A stretch of DNA of 64,000 nucleotides. Source: Myxosarcina sp. GI1. Its GTDB lineage: Bacteria; Cyanobacteriota; Cyanobacteriia; Cyanobacteriales; Xenococcaceae. Each line of letters opens with the position of its first letter. Within the stretch, counting starts at the first letter, position 1. The translations under genes were made by a program, and so were the position numbers. Of the stretch, positions 1-50,792 are shown one piece after another. Under the pieces are notes generated by a model. It was not told the DNA's origin, did not search any database, and worked only from the letters and a program-made list of their open reading frames with translations. The stretch covers positions 1 through 64,000 of the forward strand of contig NZ_JRFE01000017.1 in the NCBI RefSeq assembly GCF_000756305.1, written 5' to 3'.

Positions 1-93
1 GCAGTAGATTTACATGGTGGAGCGATCGCTATGGAAACTCAATTAGGACAAGGAACTACTTTTACCGTTGTTCTGCCTCATTTGACAAATTAA
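1..93 (+). CDS. C-terminal end of a sensor histidine kinase (partial)
   Basis: The window opens inside a reading frame that ends at the TAA at 91-93. The 30 visible residues include HGG and GQGTTFTVVLP, the G2 box and last strand of a GHKL (HATPase_c) ATP-binding domain as found at the end of sensor histidine kinases. The protein stops right after this domain, so no receiver follows. Input signal, partner and remaining domains lie outside the window. A relative such as a receiver-HATPase hybrid cannot be excluded. Confidence 0.75.
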   Translation, partial: AVDLHGGAIAMETQLGQGTTFTVVLPHLTN

Positions 94-240
94 TATCTGA
101 CCTTAAGCAGTACGTACCGAAAATTGGGGTTGTTGGTTGTTTGTTATTATATTAGTTGAATACCTACTAACCAATAACTATTAACCACTACCCGCTAATT
201 ACAAATTGATGAGCGCGTAACATCAGTTAACAAGTACTTG

Positions 241-38269: not shown

Positions 38270-38368
38270 ATGAGAGTCAGTTATATTCCATCGCTGGTAC
38301 ATACAACCGTTGAAGTAAATAAATGTCACGGCGAACCCTGTGGAGATTATTTTATACTAATTTTCTAG
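38270..38368 (+). CDS. 32-residue frame, possible gene remnant
   Basis: ATG 38270 opens a frame reading MRVSYIPSLVHTTVEVN and ending CHGEPCGDYFILIF before TAG. The CGDYF segment recalls the first metal-binding strand of SpoIIE/PP2C-type phosphatases, whose genes sit near kinases. It stops immediately and no downstream domain is found in any frame. It is either a decayed fragment or chance. Confidence 0.2.
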   Translation: MRVSYIPSLVHTTVEVNKCHGEPCGDYFILIF

Positions 38369-38646
38369 TATAAAACACTACAAAAACTTAAAACAATAGC
38401 ATTAATTTCATACAAAACAATCTAAAAAAAATCCTATTTTTGCCAAAACTTGTTTGATGAAAATAGCAAAATCAATTGGTAATATGTACGCAAGTCAAAC
38501 ATTATTAGTGCGTAAATGCCTGTCAAATAAAAGGTTGCACGTAGTAAGATCTAGCGATCGACTAAAAAACGACGCAAGAGATCTAACAGAAAACCCTATT
38601 GATAAAGCCTATTAAATACATTTAGTAAATCTTTAATTAGCATTAC

Positions 38647-38689
38647 GTATCATCGGCTACTAAAGTTTTGTAGACAAAAATTTTAAGTT
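38647..38689 (+). promoter_or_regulatory. NtcA-activated promoter of the cyanate operon
   Basis: GTATCATCGGCTAC (38647-38660) is a perfect GTA-N8-TAC NtcA box. After 23 bases comes TAAGTT (38684-38689), which fits the TAN3T -10 element. This is the classical nitrogen-control promoter layout (box centred near -41.5). Transcription would start near 38696, about 20 bases before the cynA ATG. It predicts activation under nitrogen limitation and repression by ammonium. Confidence 0.8.
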
Positions 38690-38716: not shown

Positions 38717-40369
38717 ATGGTCATTTCCTCAACAACAAACGCAACAAATAAATGGGGTAATCTCGACTCCCAAAGGGGAAATCTCAGTGAATTAGATTTG
38801 TGGTGTATGGTCTGCGGTGGTTTTCACATGACTGCCGAGCACTGGAAGTTTATGGCGGAAGATATGCCTCAAGATCCAGTGGAGATGATCGACGACCTGA
38901 TTAAAATGGGGGTTTATAAGCCAGATGTCTTTAAGGCAGCAGATGCGGTTAATGCTGCCGATTTGCGTAAAAACCTGTTGCTTAAAGTGGCGGGTAAAGG
39001 CGATCCCAAACGAGAAAGACTGGTATTAGAATTAGCCAGACAGGCAGGAGGTATTGAAAATGCTTTTGCCGCTGCGTTTGGTCCCAAGGCAGGAGAATTC
39101 TTTGGCGATGTAGTGCATTACGGTCAGTTCAGTCGCCGTCGCTTTTTGAAGAATTTAGCGGTTGGTGCAGCTTTAGTAACTTTGGCAAATTGCGCTCCTA
39201 ATAACAATGGAGGAGAACAAGCTGCAACGGAAGATTCTCCACCGCCCGAAGGAACAGAAAATCTCGAAAAGAAAGACTTAAGGATTGGCTTTATTCCTAT
39301 TACCTGCGCTACGCCAATTATTATGTCCGAACCGTTAGGCTTTTATTCTAAGTATGGTTTTAATGCTGAAGTAGTAAAAATGCCCAGTTGGGGAGCGGTT
39401 CGCGATTCGGCGATCGCAGGGGAACTAGATGCCTATCACATGCTGGCACCAATGCCCATTGCTATGACTTTAGGTTTGGGTTCGGCATCTTTTGGCGTGA
39501 AGTTAGCCAGCATTGAAAATATTAACGGTCAGGCAATTACCGTTGCTAACAGACATAAGGGAAAAGTAAACGGTCCTGCCGACTTTAAAGGCTTTGTTAT
39601 GGGCGTGCCGTTCCCCTATTCGATGCACAATCTTCTGTTAAGGTACTATTTGGCGACAGGGGGCATAGACCCAGATAAAGATGTCAAAATTCGCCCCGTA
39701 CCGCCACCAGACAGTATCGCTCAGTTAGTGGCGGGAGATATCGACGCTTATCTGATGCCCGATCCGTTCAATCAGCGGGCGGTGTATGAGGAAGTGGGAT
39801 ACATTCACAAACTCACCAAAGAATTATGGCCTGGTCATCCCTGCTGTGCCTTTGCCGCCAGCGATGCCTGGATCGAACAAAATCCCAATACTTTTAGGGC
39901 ATTAAATAAATCGATTATTGAAGCGGCTGGCTACGCTCAAGATCCTGCCAACCGTCCTGAAATTGCTAAGGCGATTTCCGAACGAGCCTTTCTCAATCAG
40001 CCTGTAGAAGTGGTAGAAGCGGTTCTTACAGGCAATTTTGATGACGGTCAGGGCAATAGTCGAGAAATACCCGATCGCATTGCTTTCGATCCCTATCCCT
40101 GGCAGAGCTTTGCCAACTGGATTTCTTCTCAGTTAGTAAGGTGGGATTTACAGGGAAGTGGAGAAGTTAAAGAGGTCTTAGGTGAAGGTAAGTATGACGA
40201 AGTAGGTCAAGAGATTTTCTTAACTGACGTAGCTAGAGAATTAGCCCAAGAACTAGGGCAGACACCTCCAGAGGATATCTATCGTACTGAAAAACTAGAG
40301 TTCGACACCTTCGATCCCGAAAATCCCCAGCAATACGTCCAACAGCAAATTGATAAATACGGCGTTTAA
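38717..40369 (+). CDS. cynA: cyanate ABC transporter substrate-binding protein (CynA-like)
   Basis: A 550-residue solute-binding protein of the NrtA/CmpA/CynA class. The binding domain starts near 185 (KKDLRIGFIPITCATPIIMS). The export signal is internal: SRRRFLK at 139-145 followed by a hydrophobic stretch and a lipobox ending at Cys159, so it is a Tat-type lipoprotein signal. The 138 residues before it are unusual, with WCMVCGGFH at 29-37 and a helical body. The assignment to cyanate rather than nitrate or bicarbonate rests on the permease, ATPase and cyanase genes that follow. The ATG at 38717 lies just downstream of the predicted NtcA promoter start, supporting the long form. A GTG inside (near residue 133) would give a conventional signal. 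Confidence 0.85.
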   Translation: MVISSTTNATNKWGNLDSQRGNLSELDLWCMVCGGFHMTAEHWKFMAEDMPQDPVEMIDDLIKMGVYKPDVFKAADAVNAADLRKNLLLKVAGKGDPKRERLVLELARQAGGIENAFAAAFGPKAGEFFGDVVHYGQFSRRRFLKNLAVGAALVTLANCAPNNNGGEQAATEDSPPPEGTENLEKKDLRIGFIPITCATPIIMSEPLGFYSKYGFNAEVVKMPSWGAVRDSAIAGELDAYHMLAPMPIAMTLGLGSASFGVKLASIENINGQAITVANRHKGKVNGPADFKGFVMGVPFPYSMHNLLLRYYLATGGIDPDKDVKIRPVPPPDSIAQLVAGDIDAYLMPDPFNQRAVYEEVGYIHKLTKELWPGHPCCAFAASDAWIEQNPNTFRALNKSIIEAAGYAQDPANRPEIAKAISERAFLNQPVEVVEAVLTGNFDDGQGNSREIPDRIAFDPYPWQSFANWISSQLVRWDLQGSGEVKEVLGEGKYDEVGQEIFLTDVARELAQELGQTPPEDIYRTEKLEFDTFDPENPQQYVQQQIDKYGV

Positions 40370-40421
40370 TCATTGAGCATTGAACATTAAACAGTGATAA
40401 ATGAAAAATATTAAATGCTAA

Positions 40422-41264
40422 ATGGTAAATGAAATGACCGCAGTACAAAAAGGAACAATACAAAGCGATCGCGAGAGTAACTTCCTCGAAAATGAGAATG
40501 TTAGAGCTTTACTGCTGTTTTTACTCTCATTAGTCCTATTTCTAGGGCTTTGGGAAATTGGGGCGAGAATGAAAATTTTGTCCAAAGGGTTTCCTACTGC
40601 CACTCTAACTATCCAGGAATTATGGTATTGGGTTACACATCCTTTTTATAACAATGGTCCCAACGACTTGGGAATTGGCTGGAACCTATTAATAAGCTTG
40701 AGAAGAGTTGCGATTGGTTATACCATAGCTTCAGTTATCGCCGTACCATTAGGTATTTTGGTAGGCATTTCTCAAGTAGCTTTCAAAGCCTTCAACCCTT
40801 ATTTCCAACTGCTAAAACCCGTATCGCCTCTAGCGTGGCTACCTATAGGTCTATATTTATTCCGCGACTCGGAAATGACGGGGGTGTTTATTATTGCGAT
40901 CGCCAGCATTTGGCCTACCCTTAATAACACCGCCTTTGGAGTTGCTAACGTCAGTTCCGACTATCTCGATGTTGCTAAAACTTTGGGTGCATCTAAGTGG
41001 CGGACAATTTTCAAAGTTATTATTCCTGCGGCATTACCCAATATTATTTCTGGGTTACGTATCAGCATGGGTATTGCCTGGCTGGTAATTGTAGCGGCAG
41101 AAATGTTGTTGGGTACTGGTTTGGGCTACTTTATCTGGAATGAGTGGAACAATCTTTATATCCCGAATATTTTTGTAACTATCTTCATTATTGGCATTGT
41201 GGGCGTTATCCTCGACCAAATCTTTGCTTATTTAGAAAAATTAGTATCTTTTGGTAAAAAATAA
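40422..41264 (+). CDS. cynB: cyanate ABC transporter permease (CynB-like)
   Basis: A 280-residue inner-membrane permease of the NrtB/CmpB/SsuC/TauC class, with about six helices. The ABC contact (EAA) loop is at YLDVAKTLGASKWRTIFKVI, followed by PAALPNIISGLRISMGIAW. There is an N-terminal cytosolic tail of about 25 residues before the first helix. The start may be ATG 40422 or the in-frame ATG 40434, as neither has a strong ribosome site. The stop codon touches the ATG of the ATPase gene at 41264 (TAATG), so the two are coupled. Confidence 0.9.
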   Translation: MVNEMTAVQKGTIQSDRESNFLENENVRALLLFLLSLVLFLGLWEIGARMKILSKGFPTATLTIQELWYWVTHPFYNNGPNDLGIGWNLLISLRRVAIGYTIASVIAVPLGILVGISQVAFKAFNPYFQLLKPVSPLAWLPIGLYLFRDSEMTGVFIIAIASIWPTLNNTAFGVANVSSDYLDVAKTLGASKWRTIFKVIIPAALPNIISGLRISMGIAWLVIVAAEMLLGTGLGYFIWNEWNNLYIPNIFVTIFIIGIVGVILDQIFAYLEKLVSFGKK

Positions 41265-42157
41265 TGACCACTAACACTTCTCTCAACTCAAACCACGCCG
41301 ATACTGTGACTGCAGACAGTGACACTACCTATCAAATTTCCCTACGGGATGTTTCTAAAACCTTTTCTGGTAAAAATGGCTGGTTAGATAAGCTGACAGG
41401 CAAAAGTAAATCGGATTTTACGGCTATTGAGAATATCAATCTTAATATCGAACATAATACCTTTGTTACGATTATCGGTCCTTCTGGCTGTGGTAAATCG
41501 ACCATGCTCGATATTATTGCAGGATTGAGTCAGGCAACCACTGGCACTGTGGCTATAAACGGCAATGTAGTAAATAAACCAGGTCCCGATCGCGGTATGG
41601 TATTTCAAAATTATGCCCTAATGCCCTGGATGACGGTACAGGATAACATCGGTTTTGCCGTTAGAACGGTTTATCCTAAGATGTCGGTCAAACAGCAGCA
41701 GCGAGTTATCAAAGAAAACATTCAGCTTGTCGGCTTAACTGGTGCCGAAACCAAACATCCCCACGAACTATCGGGAGGAATGCGGCAAAGAGTAGGGATT
41801 GCTAGAGCTTTGGCGATAAATCCTCAGATCTTACTTATGGATGAGCCATTTGGCGCGTTGGATGCCCTAACTCGCGGCTTTCTACAAGATGAAATCGAGC
41901 GGATTTGGGAACAGCAGCGCAAAACCGCGATTATGATTACCCACAGCATCGACGAAGCTTTATTGCTATCCGATCGCATCGCCATGATGACCAAAGGACC
42001 AGCAGCCAAAATTGCCACAGTTCTAGAAGTGCCTTTTCCCCGTCCCCGCGACCGCGCAGAAGTAGAAAATCATCCCGACTATCTAAAGTTGAAACAAGAA
42101 ATGGAAGACCATTTGTATCGCGAAACCAAAGCAGTAGAAGAGGCGAGGATTAGGTAA
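41264..42157 (+). CDS. cynD: cyanate ABC transporter ATP-binding protein (CynD-like)
   Basis: A 297-residue ABC ATPase that powers the CynAB importer. Visible motifs are Walker A GPSGCGKST near 77, the Q-loop in MVFQNYALMPWMTV, the signature LSGGMRQRVGIARAL near 160, Walker B ILLMDEPFGALD near 185 and the switch His in MITHSIDEALLL. It is the short form without the extra NrtA-like domain of NrtC. The N-terminal 30 residues are polar and variable. It overlaps the cynB stop by one base. A heptad repeat array follows in the spacer before cynS. Confidence 0.92.
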   Translation: MTTNTSLNSNHADTVTADSDTTYQISLRDVSKTFSGKNGWLDKLTGKSKSDFTAIENINLNIEHNTFVTIIGPSGCGKSTMLDIIAGLSQATTGTVAINGNVVNKPGPDRGMVFQNYALMPWMTVQDNIGFAVRTVYPKMSVKQQQRVIKENIQLVGLTGAETKHPHELSGGMRQRVGIARALAINPQILLMDEPFGALDALTRGFLQDEIERIWEQQRKTAIMITHSIDEALLLSDRIAMMTKGPAAKIATVLEVPFPRPRDRAEVENHPDYLKLKQEMEDHLYRETKAVEEARIR

Positions 42158-42310: not shown

Positions 42311-42757
42311 ATGAAAGAATTTCCCGAAATCACCCAAAAACTACTAGCAGCAAAAAAAGACAAAGGTATGACCTTTAAAGATCTTGAAAAAGCTGTAGGC
42401 ATGGACGAAACCTGGATTGCTTCAGTGATCTATCGTCAAGCCAGTGCCAGCATGGACGAAGCCACCAAAATTGTTACGGCTTTAGGTTTACCCGAATCTT
42501 TGGCAGAACCTCTAACCATTCCACCTTTAAAAGGTTCTCTCGATCCTTTAATTCCCACCGACCCATTGATCTATCGTTTTTACGAAATCATGCAAGTCTA
42601 CGGAATGCCAGTTAAAGCTGTGGTTCACGAAAAGTTTGGCGACGGCATTATGAGTGCCATTGACTTTTCTATTGAAGTCGAAAAAGTGGAAGATCCTAAA
42701 GGCGATCGCGTACAAATAGTTATGTGCGGTAAGTTCTTACCTTACAAGAAGTGGTAA
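42311..42757 (+). CDS. cynS: cyanase (cyanate lyase)
   Basis: Converts cyanate plus bicarbonate to ammonia and carbon dioxide, in the cytosol as a decamer. At 148 residues it is a standard cyanase. An N-terminal helix-turn-helix-like domain ([20 protein letters not shown]) precedes the catalytic domain. The active-site Arg and Glu lie in [12 protein letters not shown] (about 95-106) and the Ser in [11 protein letters not shown] (about 115-125). It ends [10 protein letters not shown]. The gene closes the cynABDS operon and is followed by an intrinsic terminator. Expression should follow the NtcA promoter at 38647. Confidence 0.97.
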
Positions 42758-42792
42758 ATTAACACTACTAACTACTAAAAAATAGTACGTTG

Positions 42793-42829
42793 CAAGTTAG
42801 GGCAATTAGTTGTTCTAACTTGTTTTATT
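42793..42829 (+). terminator. terminator of the cyanate operon
   Basis: CAAGTTAG, a 14-base loop, CTAACTTG and then TTTTATT: an 8-bp perfect stem with a T-rich tail, 36 bases after the cynS stop codon. It separates the cyanate and nitrile hydratase transcription units. Confidence 0.7.
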
Positions 42830-43219
42830 ATAAAAATTGAAAAGAAATATAATAAATATCTATTTTAATAACAATAAGGTTGCAGTTTGGTAAATACTTT
42901 AAAGGCAAAACAAAAATTCAAATAATCTATTAAATTTAAAAGTTAACAGTTTTTTACACAAATCTATTCTTTTTAGTATCTTCAGCTACATTTCGCTGTA
43001 CTTTTTTATTATTAACTAAATAAAAACAACAACGAATAAGTTTTTATTTTATTCAATTAAATTATATATTTTATGTTTGACAAAAGTACGCCAAAAAGCA
43101 TTTAATTTTAGCTTTTTTGTTTTAAATATAGTTTAAATTAGTTGGCAATTAAAAACAAGAAAATCAAGCAAGCGTCATCTTATAAGTTTTAAAAAACCGA
43201 TTTTTAACATTAGAGAATC
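42830..43219. other. AT-rich leader region of the nitrile hydratase cluster
   Basis: About 390 bases of strongly AT-rich DNA between the cyn terminator and the FGE-like gene. The only recognised element is the NtcA-type promoter at 42976-43018. It predicts a 5' leader of about 195 bases, for which I see no obvious riboswitch. Confidence 0.6.
42976..43018 (+). promoter_or_regulatory. NtcA-type promoter of the nitrile hydratase cluster
   Basis: GTATCTTCAGCTAC (42976-42989) is a perfect GTA-N8-TAC box. It is identical to the cyn box except at two of the eight inner positions. TAACTA lies 23 bases downstream (43013-43018), close to the TAN3T -10 form except for the last base. TATTAT at 43007 is a better -10 but sits only 17 bases away. 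This predicts nitrogen control of the genes from 43220 onward. Confidence 0.65.
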
Positions 43220-44170
43220 ATGCTTAAAATGAAAAGACGTAACTTTTTTAAACTAACGAGTTATGGTGGAGCAGGTTTGACAACGGCGGTTTGTGGAAGT
43301 CGTGCTTTAGCTACTGCCCCTAGTTCAAATTTGAATTTGCCCTCCTTCGATTTTGCAACCATTAAAATCGATCGCCAGGGACAGATCGAGCAACAGACCT
43401 ATCATCAAGCTAATCTTTATACCGAAAGCTTGGGAAACTATCAAACTCTGGCTATGGTGGCGATTCCAGAGGGCAAATTTCTCATGGGTTCATCTACCAA
43501 AGAAAAATTCAGCAGCGATCGCGAACGTCCTCAACATCAGGTTCGAGTACCAAAATTTTTGTTAGGTAAGTATTCCGTAACACAGGCACAATGGCGCACT
43601 GTAGCTAATTTGCCCCAGGTAAAACGGCAACTAAACCCCAATCCCTCACATTTCCAAGGCGATCGCCTGCCTGTAGAATGTGTTTCCTGGTTAGACGCAG
43701 TAGAGTTTTGCGATCGCCTAACTCAATATACTGGCAAACCATACCGCTTACCGAGCGAAGCAGAGTGGGAATATGCTTGTAGAGCAAATACTCAAACTCC
43801 TTTTAGTTATGGCGATACCGTCACTGGAAACTTAGCCGACTATGCCAGCACCTTTGCTTATGCCTCAGAAACAGGGATTCCCTATCGCCATCAAACCACT
43901 GAAGTAGGTAGCTTTATGCCCAATGCTTTTGGTTTATATGACCTACACGGCAATGTCAGAGAGTGGTGTGCCGATGTTTGGCACGAAAACTATCGCGGCG
44001 CACCAAGTAACGGTAAAGCTTGGGCAACAGGCGGTAAATCGGAATGTCGTATTCTACGGGGTGGTTCTTGGGCAAACAAACCATCTCACTGTCGTTCGGC
44101 GCATCGTTCGGGTTATCCAGCAGATTCTTTAAATCGAGCGATCGGGTTTCGTGTTGCAATGAATATTTAA
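43220..44170 (+). CDS. exported SUMF1/FGE-like domain protein
   Basis: A 316-residue protein with a Tat-like signal, KRRNFFK near 5-11, a hydrophobic stretch and SRALATA, so it is probably exported. The rest (about 65-315) is a formylglycine-generating-enzyme (SUMF1) domain: FLMGSSTKEKF, RLPSEAEWEYACRA, LHGNVREWCADVW, RILRGGSW and a final AIGFRVAMNI. True FGE has two active Cys in a GGSWLCxxxxC pattern. Here the first is Asn286 and only the second, Cys291, remains (GGSWANKPSHC), so formylglycine chemistry of the classical kind is unlikely. It is the first gene after the NtcA box and 51 bases before the nitrile hydratase beta gene, hence probably part of that operon. Its role there is unknown. 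Confidence 0.82.
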   Translation: MLKMKRRNFFKLTSYGGAGLTTAVCGSRALATAPSSNLNLPSFDFATIKIDRQGQIEQQTYHQANLYTESLGNYQTLAMVAIPEGKFLMGSSTKEKFSSDRERPQHQVRVPKFLLGKYSVTQAQWRTVANLPQVKRQLNPNPSHFQGDRLPVECVSWLDAVEFCDRLTQYTGKPYRLPSEAEWEYACRANTQTPFSYGDTVTGNLADYASTFAYASETGIPYRHQTTEVGSFMPNAFGLYDLHGNVREWCADVWHENYRGAPSNGKAWATGGKSECRILRGGSWANKPSHCRSAHRSGYPADSLNRAIGFRVAMNI

Positions 44171-44221: not shown

Positions 44222-44968
44222 ATGAAACTACAGCACAATCTAGCAGGACTAGAAGGTCTAGGAGAAATCGATTTTCAAAAGCGAGTGTTTGTCGTTCCCT
44301 GGGAAGAACGAATTTTTGGCATTCACGTCGCGATGATGGGTTTGAGTAACCATCTAGAAGCAGTCGCCATACCAGATTACTCTATGAGTAATGTACCTAC
44401 TGCTTTTGACAGTACCTGGACTTGGGGTCATCTACGCATGGGTGCTGAGGCAATGAACCCCTTTGACTATTTTAAATATCGCTATTACGAGAAATGGTTG
44501 GGGGGTATATCTGGCTTTTTTATTGATGAAGGCTATATTACCGAAGAAGAACTGGATGCCAAAACTGCACTATATCTGGAAGATGGAAATTTAGGCAATG
44601 CACCCTTACCGCAAAAACAAGCCGTAGCGATTGACGAACAGGTGATTAAATATCTGCGTGAAGGAGATTCTCCCCAGAGAAATGTAGAAGTTACGCCAAA
44701 ATTTGCGGTAGGAGACAAAATTCGCGTAAAAGATACTCCACCTACAGATCACACTCGCTTACCAGGAAACTTACGGGGCAAAATCGGCACCATCGATGTC
44801 GTTTACGACGCACCCTATACTTATTTTTTCTCTACTACCGATGGTTTGGGCGAACCAATGCCAGTCTATAACGTCAAGTTTGAAGCCACCGCGTTGTGGG
44901 GAGAAATGGCAGAACCAAATAACGTTTACTACAACGATTTATTTGAAACCTATTTGGAAGCAGCATAA
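44222..44968 (+). CDS. nthB: nitrile hydratase beta subunit
   Basis: Structural subunit of nitrile hydratase, which hydrates nitriles to amides in the cytosol. I start at ATG 44222 (MKLQHNLAGLEGLGEID, the usual beta-subunit beginning) rather than the TTG at 44213, giving 248 residues. Conserved parts are the FxxxWEERxFGxHVAMMG block near 25-42, the WxxLRMGAEAMNP helix, and a C-terminal SH3-like domain with FAVGDKIRVKDTPPTDHTRL near 160. Gene order beta before alpha is typical of cobalt-type enzymes. Degenerate ACTAAC repeats fill the short gap upstream. Confidence 0.95.
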   Translation: MKLQHNLAGLEGLGEIDFQKRVFVVPWEERIFGIHVAMMGLSNHLEAVAIPDYSMSNVPTAFDSTWTWGHLRMGAEAMNPFDYFKYRYYEKWLGGISGFFIDEGYITEEELDAKTALYLEDGNLGNAPLPQKQAVAIDEQVIKYLREGDSPQRNVEVTPKFAVGDKIRVKDTPPTDHTRLPGNLRGKIGTIDVVYDAPYTYFFSTTDGLGEPMPVYNVKFEATALWGEMAEPNNVYYNDLFETYLEAA

Positions 44969-45042: not shown

Positions 45043-45672
45043 ATGACCGAGTACAACGGCTTTAGTTACGATAGCGATCGCGAAATTTATAGTGCCGCTC
45101 GCGTTCGCGCTTTAGAATCTCTGTTAATTGAAAAAGGCATTATCTCTGGTGAAACCGTCGATAAAGTTCTCAACTACTTTGAGACGGAAATGGGACCCTT
45201 CAACGGAGCAAAAATTGTGGCAAAAGCCTGGACTAACCCCGAATTTAAAGCCAGTCTCTTAGAGAACTGTAACGCAGCGGTTTCTAACATCGGTTTGCCG
45301 CCTGGAATGTCTGGTGCCGAAGGGGAACACATGAAAATAGTCGAAAACACTCCCGAAGTCCATAACCTGATTATCTGTACTCTTTGTTCCTGCTATCCAT
45401 GGCCCACCTTGGGTTTACCCCCGTATTGGTATAAAGATCCTACCTTTCGCGCTAGAGCCGCTAGAGAGCCAAGAGCCGTACTCAAAGAATTTGGCGTGGA
45501 TTTAGGCGACGATGTAACAATTCACGTCTGGGATAGTAGCGCGCAGATTCGCTGGTTTGTCTTGCCCCAAAGACCTACTGGTACGGAAGGCATGAGCGAA
45601 GCAGAATTAGCCGCTTTAGTTACCCCAGAAGCGATGATGGGTGTAGCTTTAGTTGAATCGCCCTCAGCATAG
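45043..45672 (+). CDS. nthA: nitrile hydratase alpha subunit, cobalt type
   Basis: Catalytic metal-binding subunit (209 residues). The metal site is CTLCSC with Cys112, Cys115 and Cys117. In this family two of these cysteines are oxidised to sulfinic and sulfenic acid. The Thr in CTLCSC marks the cobalt form; iron enzymes have Ser. The following YPWPTLGLPPYWYKDPTFRA and RAAREPRAVLKEFG are strongly conserved. A clear AAGGAG ribosome site lies nine bases before ATG 45043. It forms a heterotetramer with the beta subunit and needs an activator, supplied by the next two genes. Few cyanobacteria are known for this enzyme. Confidence 0.96.
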   Translation: MTEYNGFSYDSDREIYSAARVRALESLLIEKGIISGETVDKVLNYFETEMGPFNGAKIVAKAWTNPEFKASLLENCNAAVSNIGLPPGMSGAEGEHMKIVENTPEVHNLIICTLCSCYPWPTLGLPPYWYKDPTFRARAAREPRAVLKEFGVDLGDDVTIHVWDSSAQIRWFVLPQRPTGTEGMSEAELAALVTPEAMMGVALVESPSA

Positions 45673-45730: not shown

Positions 45731-46087
45731 ATGCAACTAAAATTCGAGCATTTTGCCGCAACTACTCTAATGGGTAGCGAAGAATCACCACCCAGAAACA
45801 ATGGCGAACTCAAGTTCGATCGCGACTGGGAAGGTTTGGCTTTCGGTATGGCACTGGCTTTAGCCAAACAAGGTCACTATGAATGGGAAGACTTTCGCCA
45901 AGAATTAATTGCTTCGATCGCCGAATGGGAGTCAAAACACGATCGCAACGATCCGAGTTGGGATTACTATCAGCGTTGGTTAGAGGCTTTAGAACAAATG
46001 GCAATTGAGGCAGAACTAATTGACCCTGCCGAATTAGAACGACGCACCAATGAGATAATTCATTGTCAGCATCATGAGACGAAGTAA
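45731..46087 (+). CDS. nitrile hydratase accessory protein
   Basis: A 118-residue protein of the nitrile hydratase accessory (activator) family, related to the N-terminal half of the beta subunit. It contains [20 protein letters not shown] and [18 protein letters not shown], then [17 protein letters not shown]. In characterised systems such small proteins escort the alpha subunit and help swap in cobalt and oxidise its cysteines. The C-terminus is metal-friendly (IHCQHHETK). It overlaps the CobW gene by 14 bases, indicating tight coupling with the GTPase. Confidence 0.9.
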
Positions 46088-47090
46088 TCGACTTACGGAG
46101 CGCACAAGCTCCGCCTTAAAAAGACGGAGACGGCTCCTTAACAAAATACCCGTAACCGTCCTGACGGGATATTTAGGAGCGGGTAAAACCACTTTGCTAA
46201 ATTACATCCTGACACAAAAGCACGGTCAGAAAATAGCGGTCATCGTTAATGAGTTTGGCGAAATTGGGATCGACAATCAGTTAGTTATCGATGCCGACGA
46301 AGAAATCTTGGAAATGAACAACGGCTGCATCTGCTGTACCGTAAGGGGCGATTTGATTCGTTTGATAGGTAAATTGTTAGAACATCGCGACCGTTTCGAC
46401 TGTATAGTAATTGAAACCACTGGGCTTGCCGACCCCGCACCAGTAATTCAATCTTTTTTTGTCGATGAAATTTTATATAAACAAACCCAATTAGATGCTA
46501 TTGTTACCGTGGTCGATGCCAAACATATACAAGTCCATTGGGATAGCGATGAAGCACAGGAACAAATTGCTTTTGCCGATGTAATTTTACTCAATAAAAC
46601 AGACTTAGTTACAGTCGAAGTAGTAAGAGAATTAACTAATAAGATTCGCAGTATGAATGCGATCGCGCAATTTCACCCTACCCAAAACTGCAACATCGAC
46701 ATTAATTCAATTTTGAACAGACAAGCATTCGATCTCAAAAACGCTCTGGCGATCGATCCCCAATTTCTAGAAGAAGACGCACACCAACACGATGAATCGG
46801 TTGGTTCTATTGCCATCAGCCATACAGGTGTAGTCAATAGCGAACGGTTAAATCGCTGGCTTTACCAATTAGTACAGGCGATCGGACAGGATATTTTTCG
46901 CATGAAAGGTATCCTCAACGTTGATGATGAAGACCGACGCTTTGTCTTTCAGGGTGTACACATGACATTGGATGGTAGACCAGGAAAACCCTGGAAACCA
47001 GATGAAATCAAAACCAACGAACTAGTATTTATCGGACGCAACCTCAACGAGTCCCAACTGAGAGAAGGCTTTCTAACTTGTTTAGTTTAA
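46074..47090 (+). CDS. CobW/P47K GTPase, nitrile hydratase metallochaperone (copy 1)
   Basis: A COG0523 G3E GTPase of 338 residues. Motifs: Walker [10 protein letters not shown] near 38, the metal site GCICC (CxCC) near 90, Walker B/switch [10 protein letters not shown], and NKTD for guanine. The C-terminal CobW_C domain is at about 260-335. A His/Asp/Glu run ([10 protein letters not shown]) may bind metal. P47K-type relatives activate nitrile hydratases, so delivery of cobalt to the alpha subunit is likely (inference). The N-terminus is abnormal: 24 basic residues ([20 protein letters not shown]) precede the normal start and come from a palindromic stretch. Its close paralogue is at 49309. 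Confidence 0.93.
46096..46113. repeat. small palindrome inside the cobW copy 1 start
   Basis: CGGAGC, six-base loop, GCTCCG. It is followed by another GGAG/CTCC pairing near 46125-46136. These bases encode the extra basic N-terminus of the GTPase, so a palindromic element seems to have been built into the gene start. Confidence 0.5.
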
Positions 47091-47102
47091 AGAAATACAA
47101 AC

Positions 47103-47777
47103 ATGAAAACAGCAAAACATAACTCACTATTACGCAATCTAGTAATCGCTACCGCGATCGTCGGTGTCGAATTTGCGATCGCCGCACCCGCTTTTGCCCA
47201 TCATCCCCTCGGTGGCAGAATGCCCGCCAATTTTTTTGAAGGCATCATATCTGGCTTGGGACACCCGATGATTGGCTTAGACCATTTAGCTTTTATCATT
47301 GCTAGCGGTTTGATGGCGGTGGCAATAGCTGGTGGAATTATAGTTCCAGTGGCTTTTGTAGTTGCTACGGGACTCGGTGCGGGAATTCATTTAAGCGCGA
47401 TCGATTTACCCATTCCCGAAATAGTTATTGCTGCTTCTGTAGTGCTGTTTGGAGTGTTACTCGTTATGCAAAACGCTCGCAGACCAACTGATAACCACAC
47501 CATAACTATAGCTGGACTAGCGGCACTAGCTGGTATATTTCACGGTTACGCCTACGGAGAAGGCATTTTGGGCGCGGAACCCACTCCTTTAGTAGCGTAT
47601 CTCATTGGTTTTAGCGTAATTCAATTGGCAATTTCTCTGGGAATATATTTGGTTGTTAGTAAAGCAGTCGGTCGCGTATCTCTCAAACATCTTACTCGTT
47701 TTGCTGGTGGCGCGATCGCTGCGGTCGGTATCGTGTTTCTTTCTACGGCAATTTTAAATTATCTATCGTATGTATAG
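47103..47777 (+). CDS. HupE/UreJ family metal permease
   Basis: A 224-residue membrane protein with a cleavable signal (to about 33, PAFA before HHPLGG). The HupE/UreJ hallmark follows: SGLGHPMIGLDHLAFIIASG near 50-70, with His and Asp thought to bind Ni2+ or Co2+. A second conserved element is AGIFHGYAYGEG near 145. About six further helices follow. The family imports nickel or cobalt for metalloenzymes. Its place 12 bases after the CobW gene, within a cobalt-type nitrile hydratase cluster, argues for cobalt uptake here. Secreted His residues at the mature N-terminus would suit metal capture. Confidence 0.9.
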   Translation: MKTAKHNSLLRNLVIATAIVGVEFAIAAPAFAHHPLGGRMPANFFEGIISGLGHPMIGLDHLAFIIASGLMAVAIAGGIIVPVAFVVATGLGAGIHLSAIDLPIPEIVIAASVVLFGVLLVMQNARRPTDNHTITIAGLAALAGIFHGYAYGEGILGAEPTPLVAYLIGFSVIQLAISLGIYLVVSKAVGRVSLKHLTRFAGGAIAAVGIVFLSTAILNYLSYV

Positions 47778-49308: not shown

Positions 49309-50280
49309 ATGATTGCAACTATAGAAAAAAAATCCGTACCAGTTACCGTTTTGACTGGTTATCTTGGTGCGGGTAAAACTACATTATTAAATCGCATTTT
49401 AACTTACGAACACGGCAAAAAGGTGGCAGTAATCGTCAATGAATTTGGCGAGGTTGGCATCGACAATCAGCTAGTTATTGATGCCGATGAAGAAATCTTT
49501 GAAATGAATAATGGCTGTATCTGCTGTACGGTGAGAGGCGATTTAATTCGGATTATTGGTAACTTGATGCGACGGCGCGATAAGTTCGACCACTTAGTTA
49601 TCGAAACCACAGGACTTGCCGACCCCGCACCAGTAATTCAAACCTTTTTTGTCGATGAAGAAATTCAAACTCAATTAAATTTAGATGCGGTAGTTACCGT
49701 CGTCGATGCCAAACACATCCAAGATCATTGGGACAGCGACGAAGCACAGGAACAAATTGCTTTTGCCAACGTAATTTTGCTCAATAAAATCGACTTAGTT
49801 ACTCCAAAAGAATTAGAACAATTAGAGCAAAAAATTCGTTCGATGAACGGGATGGTAAAAATCTATCGTACCCAAAATTCGGCGATCGCAATGGATTCCG
49901 TACTTGGAGTTAAAGCCTTCGATTTAGAACAAGCCTTAGAAATCGAACCAGAACTACTAGTAGAAGACGCACACGAACACGATGAATCTGTTGGATCTTT
50001 TGCGATTGTCGAACCTGGAGAAGTAGATCTCGAAAAATTAAATAAGTGGCTAACCGAGTTACTGCAAACTCAAGGACCAAATATCTTCCGCATGAAAGGC
50101 ATTCTCAATGTTGCAGGAGAAAACAACCGCTTTGTCTTTCAAGGAGTCCACATGATTTTTGACGGCAGACCAGATCGACCTTGGCAACCAGAAGAATCTT
50201 GTAAAAACGAACTAGTATTTATCGGTCGCAATCTCAATGCCGAACGGCTGCGCCAAAATTTCAAATCTTGTCTAGTTTAA
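49309..50280 (+). CDS. CobW/P47K GTPase (copy 2)
   Basis: A second COG0523 GTPase, 323 residues, closely similar to the one at 46074 along the whole length. Shared segments include [45 protein letters not shown] and the ending [10 protein letters not shown]. This copy has a normal N-terminus (MIATIEKKS) and a similar His/Asp/Glu run (VEDAHEHDES). It looks like a tandem duplication with the hupE, WD40 and small Cys genes now between the copies. The two may serve different steps (cobalt insertion versus sulfur oxidation) or different metals; the sequence does not decide. Confidence 0.93.
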   Translation: MIATIEKKSVPVTVLTGYLGAGKTTLLNRILTYEHGKKVAVIVNEFGEVGIDNQLVIDADEEIFEMNNGCICCTVRGDLIRIIGNLMRRRDKFDHLVIETTGLADPAPVIQTFFVDEEIQTQLNLDAVVTVVDAKHIQDHWDSDEAQEQIAFANVILLNKIDLVTPKELEQLEQKIRSMNGMVKIYRTQNSAIAMDSVLGVKAFDLEQALEIEPELLVEDAHEHDESVGSFAIVEPGEVDLEKLNKWLTELLQTQGPNIFRMKGILNVAGENNRFVFQGVHMIFDGRPDRPWQPEESCKNELVFIGRNLNAERLRQNFKSCLV

Positions 50281-50363: not shown

Positions 50364-50792
50364 ATGGAAACCAAACCGCCACTACCACCATTTACCTTAG
50401 AAACCGCTAAAGCCAAAGTCCAAGGTGCGGAAGATGCCTGGAATACTCGCAACCCCGAAAAAGTGGCATTAGCATATACTGTTGATTCTCAATGGCGCAA
50501 TCGTGCCGAGTTTATCAACGGCAGAGAAGAAATTATTGCTTTTTTAAAGCGTAAGTGGGCAAAAGAATTAGATTATCGCCTTGAGAAAAGACTTTGGAGT
50601 TTTATGGACAATCGTATTTCTGTTTGTTTTGAATACGAATGGCATGACGACGGGGGTTTTTGGTATCGCGCTTATGGTAACGAAAATTGGGAATTTGCCG
50701 AAAACGGCTTGATGAAAAGAAGAGAAGCCAGCATTAACGATGTTCCTATAAAAGAATCAGAAAGAAAATTTCTCTGGGAAAGAAAGCCATAA
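50364..50792 (+). CDS. DUF1348 / NTF2-like protein
   Basis: A 142-residue single-domain protein of the SnoaL/NTF2 superfamily, DUF1348 family. Evidence is the start [20 protein letters not shown], then [20 protein letters not shown] and [20 protein letters not shown]. Members form a cone-shaped alpha+beta fold with a hydrophobic pocket. Enzymatic function is generally unknown. It lies 83 bases after the second CobW gene, at the probable end of the nitrile hydratase unit. It could bind a small organic substrate such as a nitrile or amide, but that is speculation. Confidence 0.85.

Follow-up and report, generated by a model that had tools for sequence, protein, structure and literature searches.

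What controls the nitrile hydratase genes of the cyanobacterium Myxosarcina sp. GI1, which follow a set of cyanate genes on the same strand, and do they have a promoter of their own? The window (the whole stretch of 64,000 nucleotides analysed here, in which the genes, the cyn and nth boxes, the hairpin and the candidate -10 element described below lie on the + strand) contains three genes for a nitrate/cyanate-type ABC transporter (38717..42157), whose names cynA, cynB and cynD we infer from their linkage to cynS, and the cyanase gene cynS itself (42311..42757; TIGR00673, 204.1 bits, over the cut-off). After a gap of 462 nt comes a gene for an FGE-sulfatase-domain protein (43220..44170; PF03781; second ATG at 43229), the first gene of the operon, whose best solved relative is PvdO (5hha) and whose product begins MKRRNFFKL, a start that we take to resemble a twin-arginine export signal. 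It is followed by nthB, the nitrile hydratase beta gene (44222..44968; TIGR03888, 233.8 bits), nthA, the alpha gene (45043..45672; TIGR01323, 298.3 bits, with a further match to TIGR03793), and an accessory protein gene (45731..46087; TIGR03889, 68.9 bits); alpha, beta and accessory genes are thus adjacent and each exceeds its curated cut-off, which identifies a nitrile hydratase operon. Beyond them lie genes for a CobW-family GTPase, a putative metallochaperone (46074..47090; PF02492, PF07683), a HupE/UreJ-family protein, a putative Ni/Co transporter (47103..47777; PF04955), a second CobW-family GTPase (49309..50280), which to judge only from strand and gaps possibly belongs to the same transcription unit as nth, and a small protein (50364..50792), a homologue of which comes after the accessory gene in loci L139, L141 and L145 and before the nth genes in L147.

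The gap between cynS and the FGE-like - nthB - nthA operon contains the sequence GTATCTTCAGCTAC (42976..42989), which has the GTAN8TAC core of an NtcA-binding site, and 23 nt after it (spacer 42990-43012) lies TAACTA (43013..43018), a candidate -10 element; both sets of coordinates, given in a preliminary description made from the letters of the window, proved correct on re-reading. From this spacing we predict an approximate transcription start at 43025, which would place the centre of the site at about -42.5. In canonical NtcA-activated promoters the box is followed at 20-24 nt by a -10 element that fits TAN3T; this strict form is absent from that interval here, TAACTA being TAN3A instead, and the putative nth -10 element is best read as slightly non-canonical. 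An intrinsic-terminator-like hairpin of 14 pairs with a T-rich tail (42792..42823) lies between cynS and the box (one found against a shuffle mean of 0.1; fold z -4.45), and if it is a terminator it would stop cyn transcripts, so that nth would need a start of its own. NtcA itself is encoded in this genome (G000, C3:134399-134977; TIGR03697, 384.9 bits, over the cut-off). An RNA element in the nth leader was also considered and ruled out, because the only Rfam match of the leader is weak (E 0.13 and 20.9 bits, where the gathering score is 50) and the fold of 43019-43168 is not unusual (z -0.32).

Within the window the GTAN8TAC core alone is not above chance, with 11 occurrences against 10.36 expected in shuffles, and about 0.08 would be expected by chance in the 462-nt gap; because a single core in such a gap is not rare, we took conservation as the deciding test. 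Among the 26 same-family relatives searched, six have nthA. The operon leaders of three of them (G012; G005, Xenococcus PCC 7305; and G006, Hyella; loci L019, L021 and L020) each hold one exact GTATC...TAC box, GTATCTTGAAATAC, GTATCATAAAGTAC and GTATCATATAATAC respectively, with shuffle expectations of 0.05, 0.10 and 0.18. A fourth relative (G002) has no exact core in the leader of cobW, its first gene, and carries GTATTCTGAGATAC in the gap that follows cobW, 87 nt upstream of a small gene that precedes nthB, TAACAT coming 23 nt after this box; in a fifth (G015) the two sets are fused, cynA-B-D-S being followed after 33 bp by FGE-nthB-nthA, and a box lies 72 nt before cynA; and the contig of the sixth (G024) begins 80 nt before nthB, too short to show a leader box. 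When the leaders of the window and of the first three relatives are anchored on their boxes, mean pairwise identity is 0.46 over the 36 nt that lead up to the box, 0.76 within it, 0.56 over the 36 nt that follow and 0.35 (p 0.12) at +37..72, against a background of 0.31 that comes from random placement in the same leaders, so that these values show local conservation and not independence. Conservation is highest at the box, covers the stretch with TAACTA in the three relatives, and is at background from about 36 nt past the box, where the start near 43025 is expected. The preliminary description had named lack of conservation in close relatives as grounds for abandoning its proposal; the box is instead kept in same-family nth loci, with leaders that can be aligned, and both where it lies and its conservation support an NtcA-type site suitably positioned for driving the nitrile hydratase operon.

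What can be read directly from the DNA is that the site exists, where it lies, that it is conserved, that a terminator-like hairpin precedes it and that the genome has an NtcA gene, and we consider it quite probable that this stretch is an NtcA-activated promoter of the nitrile hydratase operon; NtcA binding, activation rather than repression, the start site and the extent of the transcript are what we infer from this evidence. When nitrogen runs short, NtcA carrying 2-oxoglutarate would bind to GTATCTTCAGCTAC, whose centre lies some 42 nt upstream of the predicted start near 43025, and would recruit RNA polymerase at TAACTA; the predicted transcript would have a leader of about 195 nt and take in the FGE-like gene, nthB, nthA, the accessory gene, cobW and hupE, and the enzyme would be produced together with its metal-handling helpers whenever nitriles pay as a source of nitrogen. 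The operon is then likely to be a new target of the known NtcA switch, which itself would be of the familiar kind. The likely NtcA regulon would gain nitrile hydratase and the genes that help it, with exact and conserved candidate sites, and nitriles would seem to serve as nitrogen under the rule that also governs cyanate.

Induction of nth genes by nitrogen limitation is already published, in the literature consulted only as an expression change, for Arthrospira PCC 8005. In that strain nthA1 and nthB2 rise with cynS on nitrogen limitation, as transcript and as protein, and the available parts of the paper describe no NtcA site before nth (PMC4509649). The Arthrospira nthA/nthB genes have also been presented as an additional nitrogen route, and they fell under gamma radiation (PMC8400943). 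The Anabaena HetR target asl2028 lies upstream of two annotated nitrile hydratase genes (PMC4192349), nitrile hydratase is elsewhere mentioned merely as a cobalt enzyme (PMC4284471), and induction of cyn under nitrogen starvation has been reported (PMC4973221). Direct NtcA control of nitrile hydratase is stated in none of the available parts of the first four of these papers, and the word nitrile does not occur in the main text, as available, of a study of NtcA in Anabaena (PMC3898017). The preliminary description knew of no report of such control, and we likewise found none in the literature searched, which leaves subscription papers mostly outside. The nth site resembles the canonical NtcA-activated promoters of the Anabaena study in having GTAN8TAC with T4 and C5 and in that it could be centred near -41.5; it differs from them in having TAACTA in place of TAN3T, and its centre at about -42.5 is reckoned from a predicted start.

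It is unlikely that the operon is simply read through from the cyn promoter, with the second box idle. The nth genes do follow cynS on the same strand, the fused arrangement of G015 leaves only 33 bp between the two sets, and cyn-nth linkage is found also in L132, L139 and L145 and, more loosely, in L147. In the window, however, 462 nt and the 14-pair hairpin separate cynS from nth, and three relatives in which nth was not found to be directly preceded by a cyn gene keep both the box and the next 36 nt.

We think it very unlikely that NtcA acts here as a repressor, with the box blocking a sigma-70 promoter whose -10 element, TATCTT, lies inside it. A promoter scan does place a sigma-70-like TTTACA-18-TATCTT over the nth box, so that repression would be possible, and repression of rbcL and gor by NtcA has been described for boxes downstream of the -35 element (PMC3898017). 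But the same scan gives six matches in the AT-rich stretch around the box against 2.7 expected, conservation reaches downstream to the candidate -10 element and then ends, and the Arthrospira nth genes are induced, not repressed, under nitrogen limitation (PMC4509649).

Activation by NtcA thus remains the reading that we prefer, and the counts of the core given above, at the level of shuffles in the window and about 0.08 in the gap, are all that speaks for a chance GTAN8TAC without function. We regard this as highly improbable, given the conservation of the box in same-family leaders and its enrichment in nth leaders that were held out. For a class-wide comparison we assembled 66 loci (the 14 of a set of 80 loci that have cyanobacterial titles plus 60 stretches round search matches, less eight duplicates), a set that includes the same-family loci, omits second, more distant nthA copies and the fragment G419, and rests on uncurated, longest-frame gene calls. 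The core is present in 14 of 65 leaders against 2.9 expected, the leader of L028 having been dropped as shorter than 60 nt. Enrichment was tested on the 58 leaders with a length of 150 nt or more (56 once two cyn-headed ones were removed) and 211 control leaders from the same loci: the core occurs in 13 of the 56 nth leaders and 13 of the 211 controls (p 5e-4); the core with a relaxed -10 element (TAN3T or TAN3A at 20-25 nt), a pattern picked after the same-family sites had been seen, in 12 and 4 respectively (p 2e-6); and the core with the strict TAN3T at 20-24 nt in 6 and 4 (p 0.007). Shuffling gives a mean of 0.8 leaders with core and relaxed -10 element, and a maximum of 4 in 300 shuffles, against 13 of 58 observed. 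Because GTAN8TAC is its own reverse complement, a comparison of strands is meaningless for the bare core and only core and -10 element together have a direction; 13 of the 58 leaders carry the relaxed combination forward and 4 in reverse, and the strict one is found in 6 and 1. The distance from box to first gene ranges from 155 to 540 nt among box-bearing leaders headed by FGE-domain genes or nthB. An FGE-domain gene heads the operon of the window and 15 of the 58 nth leaders examined.

Twelve further loci from the order were fetched as a held-out set, of which nine were counted; two were duplicates, and L274 was dropped with a leader computed as 0 nt, though two boxes precede its cobW. The core is present in six of the nine leaders (p 1.3e-5, against 13 of 211 controls) and the core with the relaxed -10 element in five (p 3.6e-6), while L265 has the core without it. 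These loci are related to each other, family f18 making up 5 of 10 and 4 of the 9 counted; when they are collapsed by family, by hand, the core is found in three of five families (p 0.003) and the core with the -10 element in two of five (p 0.006). Five loci of f18 (L129 and L270-L273) have, besides one or two boxes upstream of cobW, a further box 91-92 nt ahead of nthB, an arrangement that suggests two possible start points per cluster. No leader core is found in families f32 (L266, L269 and L267, which is the same as L023) and f5 (L263 and L264, which is the same as L022); L266 and L267 have a core as close as 18 nt to nthB, upstream of it, and this core has no -10 element. Since the exact core is also absent from 43 of the 56 class-wide nth leaders, the trait is either frequent but not universal, or degenerate sites have been missed. 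It is about as likely as not that nitrile hydratase came under NtcA control long ago in this cyanobacterial order and has been kept there by selection while the wiring changed, through a promoter of its own, through extra boxes before cobW and nthB, or through fusion to cyn. If so, these cyanobacteria would regularly draw nitrogen from nitriles as well as from cyanate, and cobalt handling for nitrile hydratase would fall under nitrogen control.

The upstream cyn genes have a similar box, GTATCATCGGCTAC (38647..38660), 70 nt before cynA and with TAAGTT 23 nt downstream, of which the nth box had been called a near-copy. Our recount agrees that 12 of 14 bases match, including 6 of the 8 inner ones, and the resemblance is only mildly unusual: a match of 6 of 8 inner bases has a probability of 0.0042 with uniform bases and of 0.044 with the per-position base use of 21 boxes (11 cyn and 10 nth, the latter hand-picked from those then known), and 4 of 110 pairs of cyn and nth boxes across genomes reach it. 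The inner positions had been described as normally free, which does not hold for all of them, as the 40 strongest NtcA regions of Anabaena show some conservation of T at position 4, C at 5 and A at 10 and 11 (PMC3898017). The GTATC common to the two boxes is the look of a strong NtcA site, and the remaining match is therefore a mild coincidence. The longer pattern GTATCNTCNGCTAC, which the cyn and nth boxes share, has five exact matches in the 7.07-Mb genome, of which the remaining three are all inside open reading frames; when up to one mismatch is allowed there are 47 matches, and the reversed pattern gives 30.

Two explanations had been offered for this likeness, selection on the flanks and shared ancestry of the promoters. 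The first stands in part, in that T4 and C5 recur in nth boxes, but the inner bases of the cyn boxes vary widely among relatives. A cyn box lies at -46 to -87 in 13 of 14 cynA orthologues of at least 80% identity, counting the genome of the window and omitting a fifteenth orthologue (G006:C94), and by eye TAATTA is found 24 nt after the boxes of relatives, for example in L188, L192, L193, L194, L199 and L200. The nth promoter is like these same-family cynA(BDS) promoters of NtcA type in its GTAN8TAC core and a TA-rich hexamer 23-24 nt downstream, and unlike them in the genes that it precedes and in its inner bases, the cyn leader to the first codon being also much shorter. That the nth promoter is a duplicated cyn promoter (a proposal about origin, not function) is scarcely credible, since despite the 12 matching bases in boxes 4.3 kb apart the two leaders of the window show no more than background agreement once the box is left aside (0.32 over the 60 nt upstream, 0.36 at +1..36 and 0.33 at +37..100, where composition alone would give 0.32; their best local alignment scores 22, below the shuffle mean of 24.9), and the nth leader instead resembles the nth leaders of relatives (0.53-0.69 in +1..36).

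Some minor features of these loci are worth recording. A second GTAN8TAC, GTATAAAACACTAC, lies at 38368-38381 of the window, 349 nt before cynA, and a farther second box is also present in some relatives. In many cyanobacterial loci cobW and nthB are separated by a gene of some 170 aa (frames of 167-187 aa), and the single example searched (L128:3440-3952, minus strand) has no NCBIfam match. L025 (567-2246) contains a second nitrile hydratase set in which the beta subunit is split between two genes (model positions 1-99 and 115-224), and a similar gene order is seen in L027, L134, L135, L144 and L150; the alpha subunit of L025, the sole set checked, is over the nitrile hydratase cut-off and not the thiocyanate hydrolase one. 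Finally, several short frames in G012:C123 and G006:C8 match the C-terminal part of nitrile hydratase alpha only, a pattern also seen in NHLP-type peptide precursors.
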